Virus record (IMG/VR): IMGVR_UViG_3300037427_001009
Location: 1-36,817 of that record
From: a virus
DNA: 36,817 bases
Strand: one strand, 5' to 3'
Shown here: positions 17,653 to 35,192 of the stretch, one piece after another
How positions within the stretch are numbered: position 1 is the stretch's first letter
How the letters are laid out: each line of letters starts with the position of its first letter
Made by a program: the position numbers and the translations under genes
The notes under the pieces: generated by a model
Databases searched by the model: none
The model's input: only the letters and a program-made list of their open reading frames with translations
Told to the model about the DNA's origin: nothing

Positions 17653-19611
17653 ATGGCAGAACTAACAGATAGCGAAAAGAAAGCTCAACAAGAAACAATG
17701 GAGCTCCAAGCTAAGTGGTTAGAAACACTTAGTGTTAAGATGGATACTTTGGTCAGCGAGACCAAATCTCAATCTTCTATGGATACTGTTAAAGCTTTTA
17801 AGCAAGCACTGAAAGAAGGTGGTGCATCAACCGAAGATGAGGAAGCATTACAAAATAAACTTGGGTTAATGCAACTTGGTTATTCTGAGGATGATGCAGA
17901 CCTAAGAATATCTGCCAATAAGATGTTGAAATCAAATCAAGAAGAACAAAAAAGACTGACAGATTTACAAGAAGAGTTTGGTGGGTTAACTGCAAGGGAT
18001 AGCACTATTCTCAAGCAACTCAAATATGATGAAGAGAATATGATTAACATGCGTAAGTTTGGTAGGAATCTTTCTGCAATGGAAAAAGGTCTTATGTTCT
18101 TTTCGAAAGATTGGGTTGAAAAGTTATTAGAAGACAGAGCAAACGAAGACTCCCAAATGAATAAACCATGGCAAGGCTTGATGGGAGACTTAAGAGGTGA
18201 CTTTGATAAAGTTACTGCATTTCTAGGGCCTGCTGCTGGTGCAATACAAAACCTACCATTCCTTGGTACTATAGCAAAATTTGCTGGTAATTTCCTCAAG
18301 AAACAAATTGCAAACTTCATTATCTGGAGAAGGGAAAGAAAATTAGACCGAAAACACCAGAAGAAGATAGAAAAACAAAATGCAGACTCCAACAAAATGG
18401 AGAAGAAACAGTTAGAGGATAACTTAAGAAGAGATGCAAAAGCATTCATTGCTCCAACATCAAGTTTGACTGGTGGACTCAATGAACCAGATGTTGAAAA
18501 AGGTGAAAAAGGTGAAGGTGATGGTGGATTGTTTGAAGCTGCTGCTGGAGCAATGGCACTAGGTGCAACTGCACCAATATTTAATCCTGCGACAATGACA
18601 GCATTTGTGACTGCATCTGCACTTGCAGCTGCGGGTCTACTTTTATTAGGTGCTGGTGTTGCAGGCTTTATTGCATTGGTTGGATTAGGTGCTGGTGCAG
18701 CTATTGGTGCATTGATGAAGGGATTTGCAAATGGGATTGCATCGTTTGAAGAAACTGGTGCAAATGACTCCCTTGAGAGGATGGAAAAGATAGACATGGT
18801 TAAGGTTGCAGCTGGTCTTGCAGCGTTGGCTGGTGCATCTGTCCTTAATTCAATTGCTGGATTGATAGACCTATTACCTGGCGATTCAAATGTATATACA
18901 AAACTAGGTGAAGATGCAGCTGGATTTGCAAATGCAATCAATGGTAGTGGATTCATGGACATTGATACTGAAAAGTTCAATAATAGTGTCGATATGTTAT
19001 TTGGTGCATCTATGCAAAGTTCTTTTGCTGGATTCTTATCTTGGTTTAAAGGTGATGCAACACCATTTACTGATATGGGTCAAGATGTTGCTGGATTTGC
19101 AAATGCAGTTAAACCATTCATGGACATGGAAACAGATACCTTTGTAGATAACATAACCAAAATCAAAGAGGCAATGGCAGACTTTGAATTACCAGAGAAT
19201 AAAGATGGATTACTTAAGAGTTTATTTGGTGAGTCTGGTGTTGACCAATTAGCATCCCTTGCAAAAATCAAATTCGTAGACCCTCATCTGGGTTCAAATA
19301 TGGTTGCTTTAGGTGCTGGTGTTAACAGTATATCAGCTGGTCTTGAAGACTTAGATTCTAGTAAACTAAAATCATTTGTCAAACAAATTGATGACTTTGA
19401 GAATATAACTCTAAACTTTGGTGCAAGTCCAACTACTGCTGGTGCAACTTTTGATGTAAAAGGTGGTGGTAAAGCAGAACAAGTCAATAATGTAGTGACA
19501 CAAATTGTACCTACATCAAATCAGATGAGAGTACAAAAGAACTTTGCTGCAACTGGTACTGCACATAGAAACAGTCGTGCAAACCATCACATCCATTCTA
19601 CACTACATTAA
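17653..19611 (+). CDS. Tape measure protein candidate (gp29-like position)
   Basis: This 652-aa protein follows the chaperone pair, as tape-measure genes do. Residues 1-160 are charged and coiled-coil-like. Residues 185-215 are hydrophobic, and 215-260 are very basic (RRERKLDRKHQKKIEKQ). Residues 290-370 are a long Ala/Gly hydrophobic stretch with probable membrane-insertion helices. Three degenerate repeats follow around residues 415-570 (GEDAAGFANAI..MDIDTEKF, GQDVAGFANAV..MDMETDTF, GAGVNSISAG..LDSSKL). The C-terminus is His-rich (HHIHSTLH). This layout fits tape-measure proteins, which set tail length and enter the membrane at infection. Similarity to T4 gp29 (590 aa) is by size and place only. 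There is no Shine-Dalgarno; GATAAATACTACT precedes the ATG. Confidence 0.7.
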   Translation: MAELTDSEKKAQQETMELQAKWLETLSVKMDTLVSETKSQSSMDTVKAFKQALKEGGASTEDEEALQNKLGLMQLGYSEDDADLRISANKMLKSNQEEQKRLTDLQEEFGGLTARDSTILKQLKYDEENMINMRKFGRNLSAMEKGLMFFSKDWVEKLLEDRANEDSQMNKPWQGLMGDLRGDFDKVTAFLGPAAGAIQNLPFLGTIAKFAGNFLKKQIANFIIWRRERKLDRKHQKKIEKQNADSNKMEKKQLEDNLRRDAKAFIAPTSSLTGGLNEPDVEKGEKGEGDGGLFEAAAGAMALGATAPIFNPATMTAFVTASALAAAGLLLLGAGVAGFIALVGLGAGAAIGALMKGFANGIASFEETGANDSLERMEKIDMVKVAAGLAALAGASVLNSIAGLIDLLPGDSNVYTKLGEDAAGFANAINGSGFMDIDTEKFNNSVDMLFGASMQSSFAGFLSWFKGDATPFTDMGQDVAGFANAVKPFMDMETDTFVDNITKIKEAMADFELPENKDGLLKSLFGESGVDQLASLAKIKFVDPHLGSNMVALGAGVNSISAGLEDLDSSKLKSFVKQIDDFENITLNFGASPTTAGATFDVKGGGKAEQVNNVVTQIVPTSNQMRVQKNFAATGTAHRNSRANHHIHSTLH

Positions 19612-19819: not shown

Positions 19820-20020
19820 CTATTCTGATTTGTATTTTTGGTGTCTTGGAATGACTTTGGTTTTATCCTTATGGACTCGTGTTACACTATGGTCTGGTTG
19901 ATGCTTGCGTGACTTTATATCTGGTTTCTTCTTACCGAAGATTTTTTCCCAGTTATCACCATACAGTTCTTCATTAGAATCTCTTCTCTTAGAACCTTTG
20001 CCACCATGCCAGTTACTCAT
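19820..20020 (-). CDS. Small basic protein conserved in T4-like phages
   Basis: This 66-aa, Lys/Arg-rich protein has the segment 'GGKGSKRRDSNEELYGDNWEKIFGKK', here quoted in parts as GGKGSKRRDSN and YGDNWEKIFGKK. That pattern recurs among T4-like marine phages. It has no enzyme motif; the charge suggests nucleic-acid contact. It lies directly downstream of a long GC-enriched leader and a late promoter. Confidence 0.7.
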   Translation of the reverse strand: MSNWHGGKGSKRRDSNEELYGDNWEKIFGKKKPDIKSRKHQPDHSVTRVHKDKTKVIPRHQKYKSE

Positions 20021-20206
20021 TATCTTGTCTCTTGGAAAAATTAGAATTGTTAAACCTGCCCCTCAGTCCCGCAGTCTAACCGATATCCTCTGCCGCATTT
20101 GATATCTTACCTCGATATGTATACCCAAACCTCTGCCATCCTACTTGGTATAACTCTCTGGGTCTCAGTGTTAACCCAGTCCCCTCAATCCTATTAGTGC
20201 ATAGTA
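20021..20206 (-). ncRNA. Structured leader / candidate non-coding RNA
   Basis: A gene-free stretch of about 185 nt lies between a late promoter and the 66-aa gene. By my count 20041-20200 is about 46% G+C, clearly above the AT-rich surroundings. On the minus strand several hairpins are visible in order: CUGGGU/ACCCAG (10-nt loop); UAUACC/GGUAUA; AUAUC/GAUAU or the competing GAUAUC/GAUAUC; and UUAGACUGC/GCAG-G-UUUAA (nine pairs, one bulge). GGCAGAGG occurs twice. Two tiny frames of 10 and 11 codons exist but lack convincing ribosome binding sites. It could be a stable RNA or a regulatory 5' leader. Confidence 0.55.
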
Positions 20207-20214
20207 TATTTATA
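20207..20214 (-). promoter_or_regulatory. Late promoter before the structured leader
   Basis: The plus strand reads TATTTATA, i.e. TATAAATA leftward. It lies in the gap just downstream of gp32, so it separates the late leader and small-gene unit from the gp32 transcript. Expected start near 20201. Confidence 0.65.
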
Positions 20215-20241
20215 ATTCAATAACTTTAGGATTGCGTATCC

Positions 20242-21132
20242 TTACACATCATTTGCAAGTTTTTGGAAGTATGAGAGTGACTCATCTTCATCTACATCTG
20301 CACTTGCAGTTGTAGGTTCTACAATTGATGGTTCTGGACTTGGAAATGCAACATCATCCATATCAGATGCAACCGAAGCTGCAGTTGATGTTGATGCTGT
20401 CATCCCTAAAACTCTGTCGAGTTTTTGTTTGAGTTCATCATACGATTTGAACTCACTTGGTGCAATCACATCCTTTAATGAATGTTGACTATTCCAGATT
20501 GCTTCCAGTTTTTCATCATCCTCTGATAATGGTTTTGCAGTTGCAAACTCTGATTTATCATAGTTCCAGTAGCCATCTACTTTACGAACTTTAATTTTAA
20601 AGTCTGCACCTTCCCATAAATCAAATGGATTTAATGGTGTTTCATCTTGAAACTGTGGTTGCATTCTGTCTTTCAACATCTCGAAGATTTTCTTTCCATA
20701 TCTGAAAAGCATAACCTTTCCTTCATTTTCTGGATGAGTTGGGTCAGAAACTACAAGAATGTTTGACACATAGTGCAACCTTCTTTTTTGTTTCCTTGCA
20801 ATATCCTTGTTTGACTCAATACCAGAGTTCCACAATTCAGTATTGTGTTCTGACACTGGGTCTTTATCATTAAGAGTCGTTAGAGACTTCTCAATGTACC
20901 ATCCACCTGGCCCTTGGAAGCCATGGTCAAAGTATTGAATCCAAGGCATATCCTCGTTTTGAGGTGCTGGTAGGAATCTTACAACTGCATAACCATTACC
21001 AGTCTTATCTAAGTCGATTTTCCAGTATCGTTCATCGTTGTAGGATTTAGTTTCACCACTAGAAACCTTTTCTAATGATGCTTGTAAGGTGTCGAATCCA
21101 CCTCTAGATTTTTTTAAGTCTTGAAATGACAT
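20242..21132 (-). CDS. 32: Single-stranded DNA-binding protein gp32, without zinc site
   Basis: This 296-aa protein compares with 301 aa in T4. gp32 coats single-stranded DNA in replication, recombination and repair. The N-terminal basic/cooperativity region (residues 1-20), the core with 'YVSNILVVSDPTHPENEGKV' and 'LFRYGKKIFEMLKDRM' (about 120-155), 'WEGADFKIKVRKVDGYWNYDKSEF' split around 170-195, and the acidic C-terminal tail (DVDEDESL) are all present. The zinc-binding segment of T4 (CPVC..) is replaced by DPVSEHNTELWNSG, and the whole protein has no cysteine. The start has GAGGAT 6 nt upstream; TATAAT-like sequence near 21170 may be its own promoter. A small hairpin AGGAT/ATCCT lies at the stop (20228-20242). 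Confidence 0.93.
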   Translation of the reverse strand: MSFQDLKKSRGGFDTLQASLEKVSSGETKSYNDERYWKIDLDKTGNGYAVVRFLPAPQNEDMPWIQYFDHGFQGPGGWYIEKSLTTLNDKDPVSEHNTELWNSGIESNKDIARKQKRRLHYVSNILVVSDPTHPENEGKVMLFRYGKKIFEMLKDRMQPQFQDETPLNPFDLWEGADFKIKVRKVDGYWNYDKSEFATAKPLSEDDEKLEAIWNSQHSLKDVIAPSEFKSYDELKQKLDRVLGMTASTSTAASVASDMDDVAFPSPEPSIVEPTTASADVDEDESLSYFQKLANDV

Positions 21133-21179: not shown

Positions 21180-21995
21180 TTAAACTAAGTATTGTTCCAA
21201 AGGTTCAACACTTAATTCATCCTTCATTATATAATAATCTATGTTTTGGAATCTGTCAACTAAAATCTTTAGTTGTTCTGTCTGGGATATCCAACCTTGG
21301 TCACCAGTCTCAACAAGTCTGTTGTTCTCTGGGTCGTCTTCTGTCCCATAACATTCAGTTCCAGCATAGATGTTATTATATTTAGTCGTATCGTAATTCC
21401 AAATAGAATCAAATCCGACAAAAACTACATTACTGTAGTCGTGGTTCATAGATGCCATTGCAGCTGCAGTAGTACCTGCGAACCAATTCTCAAATAGATG
21501 GTAGTCATCATCTGGCCCACCAACACTTGAAATCTTATAGTCATTCTCTACTCCTATTGCTTGCATTTCTAGGATACCAATGTTTCCATTACCTTTTCCA
21601 TGCATAGTCACTTTAGAATGACTTGGGTCTATCCACTCTTTTACTGGGACACCCATTGTTCCTTTAATCATGTTATACTCTTCATGTCCTAATGGGTCAT
21701 CCCATTCTCCAGAGAAATAACATTTGTTGTATTTTGGATACTTTGTCTTACAACATTCACCCATGATACTTACATCTACTATTGTAAGATAATCTGGAGT
21801 GTAGTCTCTAAACAGTGCATTACAACCCCATATGTCTCCACCAAGCAACTCTAAGTCTAATCCTATCCTAGACTGACCATTACCTATGATGTATGCAGTT
21901 CCATTTTCTGGTAACTTCACATTACTAATATAGATTCCTTGCTTATTTAAGTCTTGCCAACTTTGTGCTTCAAAATCAAGAGTCTCAAGAGTCAT
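21180..21995 (-). CDS. Rossmann-like protein (DUF115/MptE-like), unknown substrate
   Basis: This 271-aa protein overlaps the end of gp59 by 11 bases. 'AYIIGNGQSRIGLDLELLGGDIWGCNALFRDY' (from residue 29, quoted in parts: YIIGNGQSRIGLDL, IWGCNALFRDYTPDYLTIVD) is a nucleotide-binding-like start. It is also seen in DUF115 / 6-hydroxymethylpterin pyrophosphokinase-like and flagellin-glycosylation proteins. 'AGTTAAAMASMNHDYSNVVFVGFDS' near residue 170 is the second typical element. It is inserted between gp59 and gp32, which are adjacent in T4. Sugar transfer or nucleotide-linked modification are possibilities; the sequence does not decide. Confidence 0.55.
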   Translation of the reverse strand: MTLETLDFEAQSWQDLNKQGIYISNVKLPENGTAYIIGNGQSRIGLDLELLGGDIWGCNALFRDYTPDYLTIVDVSIMGECCKTKYPKYNKCYFSGEWDDPLGHEEYNMIKGTMGVPVKEWIDPSHSKVTMHGKGNGNIGILEMQAIGVENDYKISSVGGPDDDYHLFENWFAGTTAAAMASMNHDYSNVVFVGFDSIWNYDTTKYNNIYAGTECYGTEDDPENNRLVETGDQGWISQTEQLKILVDRFQNIDYYIMKDELSVEPLEQYLV

Positions 21996-22575: not shown

Positions 22576-22854
22576 CTAATTCCTATGTGTTCTTTTGTAG
22601 TGTTCAAGTGCAGCTTGTTCTCTCCACTTATTAATCTTGATTTGTCTTTTCCAATCGTTCTTCTTTTTCTGTCTTTTTGCAGAAGGTTTTTCATAGTATT
22701 GTCTCTTACGAACCTCTGCAACTATTCCATCTCGTTCACACTTCTTCTTGAATCGTCTAAACAAAACATCAAATGGTGGTGGCCCAGATGGTTTCTTTGG
22801 TTTTCTTCCCCATTCCTTTTGTCTTTGTGGTCTACGATTGTCAAACTTCTTCAT
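22576..22854 (-). CDS. rpsU: Ribosomal protein bS21 homologue
   Basis: This 92-aa protein has residues 27-62 matching bacterial bS21: '[22 protein letters not shown]' in parts ([33 protein letters not shown]) versus E. coli [34 protein letters not shown]. It is followed by the usual very basic helix. An extra basic, Pro-rich N-terminus of about 25 residues precedes it. bS21 binds the 30S platform next to the anti-Shine-Dalgarno and helps initiation; phage copies could replace the host protein. It overlaps gp33 by four bases (ATGA), so translation is coupled to a late-transcription factor. Confidence 0.93.
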
Positions 22855-35116: not shown

Positions 35117-35192
35117 TGGTGGAGCTGATAGGAATCGAACCTACGACCTACTGGATGCAAACCAGTCGCTCTCCCTACTGAGCTACAGCCCC
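35117..35192 (-). tRNA. tRNA-Ala (UGC)
   Basis: The 76-nt gene folds as a standard cloverleaf on the minus strand. The acceptor GGGGCTG pairs with CAGCTCC (one G-U), with discriminator A and encoded CCA. The anticodon arm ACTGG-TTTGCAT-CCAGT gives anticodon TGC, and the T arm is GTAGG-TTCGATT-CCTAT. Its first ten bases overlap the end of the nuclease gene, whose TAG stop is inside the tRNA acceptor/D region, so the mRNA and tRNA must share a transcript. Confidence 0.95.

Follow-up and report, generated by a model that had tools for sequence, protein, structure and literature searches.

Results

A gene-free tract downstream of gp32

The window, meaning the whole 36,817-nt stretch of marine T4-like phage DNA that we analysed, carries a structured RNA on its minus strand, immediately 3' of gp32 (Table 1). 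The earlier note on this DNA had described a gene-free, G+C-enriched tract here, and both descriptions hold: the tract is bounded by gp32 (stop at 20242) and a 66-aa ORF (start at 20020), and the RNA interval has 46.5% G+C vs 35.5% for the window, above 99% of equal-sized windows. On its own strand the RNA is G-rich and C-poor (32% G, 14% C). Genes of the surrounding operon follow the order gp33-S21-gp59-unknown-gp32. Searches of Pfam and PHROG gave no match for the 66-aa gene or for the 652-aa ORF convergent with the operon; the latter is also convergent and downstream in group A relatives (groups are defined below). The position of the 271-aa ORF is shared by groups A and B and by most C/D loci.

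Table 1. Features at the gp32-adjacent locus, by position in the window
Feature	Position	Strand	Basis
652-aa ORF, convergent with the operon	17653-19611	plus	ORF
66-aa gene, directly after the RNA in group A only	19823-20020	minus	26/26 unique group A sequences
Structured RNA (159 nt in model R1)	20048-20206	minus	model and relatives
Helix P4: GUUAGACUGC (20071-20080) with GCAGGUUUAAC (20049-20059)	20049-20080	minus	arm alignments, covariation
Helix P3: GAUAUC (20101-20106) with GAUAUC (20082-20087)	20082-20106	minus	equivalent helix in C/D
Helix P2: UAUACC (20147-20152) with GGUAUA (20120-20125)	20120-20152	minus	pair change in group A
Helix P1: CUGGGU (20174-20179) with ACCCAG (20158-20163)	20158-20179	minus	arm changes in relatives
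Inverted repeat CAAUCCUA/UAGGAUUG flanking the late promoter	20186-20234	minus	repeat scan
Putative late promoter TATAAATA	20207-20214	minus	octamer match, conservation in groups A/B
gp32 (T4-type ssDNA-binding protein), constant upstream neighbour of the RNA	20245-21132	minus	PF08804 3.7e-43; phrog_224 1.2e-115
271-aa ORF between gp59 and gp32	21183-21995	minus	phrog_30607 (unknown function), sole match
Ribosomal protein S21	22579-22854	minus	PF01165

The region matched no family at the Rfam 15 gathering threshold and gave no plausible match when the search was relaxed to E up to 5. Rfam likewise returned no match in seven relatives. ARAGORN and Rfam detected neither a tmRNA nor a tRNA at the RNA locus; the only tRNA of the window, a tRNA-Ala, lies elsewhere (35117-35192).

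The RNA defines a family in one clade of uncultured marine phages

The relatives comprise those of the 66-aa protein and gp32 that tblastn confirmed, and those from three exact pattern scans of IMG/VR (39, 71 and 90 contigs). After removal of four repeats and one chance match, the RNA was present in about 195 uncultured ocean phage contigs. Its sequences fall into three groups, A (the window's own), B and C/D, with 59, 89 and 102 loci respectively when contig repeats are counted, and 113 distinct gp32-downstream sequences. Every pattern match with enough upstream sequence lies just 3' of gp32, except the chance match (L237), which lies inside a long ORF resembling ribonucleotide reductase.

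A covariance model built from six group A sequences (R1) picked up group B members, and some from C/D, at the equivalent position (E from 1e-18 to 5e-3). The model built from C/D (R2) detected an intermediate sequence, L097, at 6e-5 and scored the other A/B members weakly (E 0.16-0.43). By RNA model alone, homology between A/B and C/D is weak for most pairs, and the case for it draws on L097, R1, the shared skeleton and synteny. In a gp32 tree all RNA-bearing rows form one clade (support 100/98), with group B outside C/D plus A. A phage-genome collection queried by BLASTN with RNAs of groups A, B, C and D gave no match, and neither did the whole Melnitz and HTVC008M genomes searched with R2. 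In GTDB genomes the A/B core pattern had 46 exact matches, none of which R1 scored (E up to 0.1), and these were set aside as chance. The BLASTN and GTDB negatives hold within the sensitivity of those searches.

Compensatory changes support a conserved fold

The earlier note had listed at least four consecutive hairpins. Folded singly, the window sequence does no better than dinucleotide shuffles (z = -0.36), so hairpin inspection alone is no evidence and the case has to come from comparison. There the hairpins stood up, four helices covarying in relatives. In C/D, 98.7% of cells in P2, P3 and P4 are standard-paired, with changes on both sides in 17 of the 24 pairs; the helix equivalent to P3 has all seven of its pairs altered on both sides in some sequences. 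The five hairpins of group B are paired in 95.5% of cells, and 22/37 pairs show changes on both sides. None of 500 shuffles equalled C/D or B in pairing and covariation score. When the partner was shifted by 1-3 columns, pairing fell to 26-40% in C/D, and to 26-43% across the C/D and B controls together. RNAalifold, supplied with no structure, recovered P1, the extra hairpin, P2, P3 and P4 in group B and P2-P4 in C/D. In group A it returned only P2 and P4, missing P1 and P3 owing to misalignment of P1 and of the P3 3' arm.

Group A itself contains arms that change together. P1 occurs as CUGGGU/ACCCAG, CUGAGU/ACUCAG, CUAGGU/ACCUAG, AUGGUG/CACCAU and CUCGU/ACGAG, and one P2 pair is A-U in 11 sequences and G-C in 12. 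Among counted pairs, G.U occupies 87 cells vs 3 for A.C, which identifies the gp32-sense strand as the folded one. A structure conserved through compensatory changes is what a stand-alone phage non-coding RNA would show, and comparison of sequences strongly supports such a conserved, covarying RNA structure in the tract. To that extent the stable RNA proposed earlier stands. The outcomes that had been named as speaking against it, a lack of covariation or a region absent or replaced in relatives, were examined and did not occur, and the covariation search suggested for related phages was positive in both C/D and B.

Two finer details fared less well. The GAUAUC arms had been read as mutually exclusive, an alternative that relatives do not preserve: the AUAUC upstream of P3 becomes AAUC there, while the GAUAUC/GAUAUC pairing of P3 itself is retained or covaries. 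The window does contain the duplicated GGCAGAGG, but it is not conserved, its first copy being GGUUGAGG in most relatives.

Across the family, which measures about 150-180 nt and has four helices (five in group B), the loops are more conserved than the stems. Purines dominate in them, and within groups they hardly vary (UACCAAGUAGG, GCGG, GCGGG, GGGGC). An invariant GGGG (20181-20184) precedes P1. The P2 loop, AAGUAGGAUGG..GAGGUUUG (20126-20146), is near-invariant, purine-rich and conserved in group A. GAGGUAA (20107-20113) precedes P3, whose loop holds an invariant GCGGCAG, and P4 contains a conserved G-rich internal loop, GGG..GAGGG.

Groups A and B share a late promoter element directed into the RNA

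The late promoter element reported beside the tract was found again, on the minus strand. Counts of the octamer alone do not reach significance in the window (7 found vs 4.4 expected), but its position is conserved: in a scan that began 150 nt before the gp32 stop and ended 70 nt after it, 148/148 loci of groups A/B had it at the same spot, pointing into the RNA, against 0/102 in C/D. By sequence, then, the RNA has a promoter of its own directed into it in A/B and lacks one in C/D, where it begins about 10 nt past the gp32 stop. Independent late transcription is thus predicted not to be universal in the family. A gp33-like late coactivator gene lies near the RNA locus (Pfam/PHROG profiles). 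No clear terminator was identified at the 3' end of the RNA.

The late promoter is also flanked by an inverted repeat, which can equally be written CAATCCTA/TAGGATTG and whose two arms are both present in read-through transcripts only. Several relatives having CAAUUCUA have UAGAAUUG too, and both arms are altered in several relatives (CAATTCTA/TAGAATTG). A different inverted repeat spans the promoter in some group B loci (AGGTTATA..TATAACCT in L102).

The downstream gene differs between groups

The gene that follows the RNA is always the 66-aa gene in group A. In C/D it is S21, or another gene and then S21; in 15 C/D sequences (e.g., L058) the RNA is separated from S21 by a 295-aa ORF (MKSEYYKNILPWNENERVIDQFG...). 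In group B the next gene is convergent, its stop codon abutting the RNA 3' end in 38/38 testable loci, so that the promoter there has no co-oriented gene to serve. Since downstream genes vary by group, the constant feature is gp32 upstream and not any downstream gene.

S21 was also found by tblastn within 4.5 kb upstream of the gp32 stop in all A (10/10) and B (26/26) sequences with enough flank. Near gp32 it was not found in 44 RNA-less loci (tblastn), nor by Pfam in 21 RNA-less records, many of them short fragments; in Melnitz and HTVC008M it is located elsewhere in the genome. The linkage of S21 to gp32 in RNA-bearing phages may reflect shared ancestry only.

Discussion

The explanation we favour, and consider probable, is a new family of structured non-coding RNA 3' of gp32 that is late, stand-alone and trans-acting and probably part of a ribonucleoprotein. 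In groups A and B the RNA would be made late from its own TATAAATA promoter, with transcription starting a few nt downstream of the element, and in C/D it would be made from the gp32 transcript. Its action would be in trans and at the RNA level, and its likeliest role would be to scaffold, or serve as ligand for, a protein recognizing the conserved G-rich loops. Candidate partners, suggested by position only, are gp32, the phage-encoded bS21 or the ribosome, and the late transcription machinery. A more ambitious version, in which a late phage ribonucleoprotein uses the invariant G-rich loops to reprogram translation or late development, possibly with the gp32-linked S21, is speculative and we hold it to be doubtful.

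The strongest rival is a cis-acting element in the 3'UTR of the gp32 mRNA, serving stability, retroregulation or gp32 autoregulation, with the promoter incidental. The constant linkage to gp32, the only constant neighbour, fits this rival as well, as does the C/D arrangement, in which the RNA starts so close to the gp32 stop and no late promoter was detected in the interval, and the L17 downstream element offers a published candidate precedent (PMC2864571). However, the promoter found throughout A/B would yield the RNA without gp32, and a purely cis-acting element needs none. We regard this reading as unlikely, though it keeps some weight.

A 5' leader or riboswitch for the downstream genes, the regulatory role for two small genes envisaged in the earlier note, is improbable. 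The invariable 66-aa gene of group A and the S21 of C/D, whether next or one gene further, would suit it, but the constant co-oriented gene that a leader or riboswitch calls for was not found: downstream genes differ by group, and B has none that is co-oriented. As a general function the leader role is contradicted by group B; one confined to group A may exist.

We think it very improbable that the tract is instead a DNA-level element, a site of replication, recombination or packaging whose single strand folds. It does adjoin the gene of an ssDNA-binding protein and, in A/B, lies close to where gene blocks of opposite orientation meet, and the strand bias seen for G.U would also arise from G.T pairs if the folded molecule were single-stranded DNA. 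Nevertheless, A/B loci have a conserved promoter directed into it, and the consensus fold computed with RNA energies recovers the structure. A short coding region or chance hairpins can practically be dismissed: some C/D sequences have stop-free stretches of up to 57 codons, but the longest such stretches are close to the shuffled expectation and sequence lengths fall in every residue class mod 3, while chance hairpins are already contradicted by compensatory changes that exceed every shuffle.

The RNA is not described in the literature searched. Among its closest likenesses is the L17 downstream element (RF01708, Weinberg 2010), a candidate located 3' of a gene that it possibly regulates (PMC2864571). 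Like the present family, this candidate structured RNA sits just 3' of a single constant gene, and in many instances no annotated gene comes after it (PMC2864571). It differs in its hosts (Lactobacillales and Listeria) and neighbour gene, where here we have a phage, gp32 and no Rfam match, and unlike it groups A/B have a promoter inside the gap. The manA, wcaG and PhotoRC-II motifs are, like this RNA, covarying motifs of marine T4-like phages, in their case cyanophages, but they lie in potential 5'UTRs of, or are tied to, specific genes, whereas the gene after the gp32-adjacent RNA is not constant and Rfam gives no match for it. Melnitz, a related marine Kyanoviridae phage, also carries a structured RNA, a two-piece tmRNA with a glutamine riboswitch; ARAGORN and Rfam detected no tmRNA or riboswitch in the window. 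CfrI of cyanophages is another phage-encoded non-coding RNA, an antisense RNA near psbA, whereas the gp32-adjacent RNA is intergenic and structured. Ocean-VI (Weinberg 2010), listed with no Rfam accession, is likewise a marine-only RNA-like motif. A CsrA-type decoy was also considered and rejected, GGA motifs judged by eye not being conserved at fixed positions.

The RNA was found in every testable sampled member of one uncultured marine phage clade and its loops are more conserved than its stems, so it is likely to be important in infection. Its covariance model, promoter and constant neighbour provide a concrete target for searches of ocean metatranscriptomes and for tests of RNA-based control in T4-like phages. 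More broadly, intergenic tracts of uncultured phages can hide RNA families that Rfam-based annotation misses.
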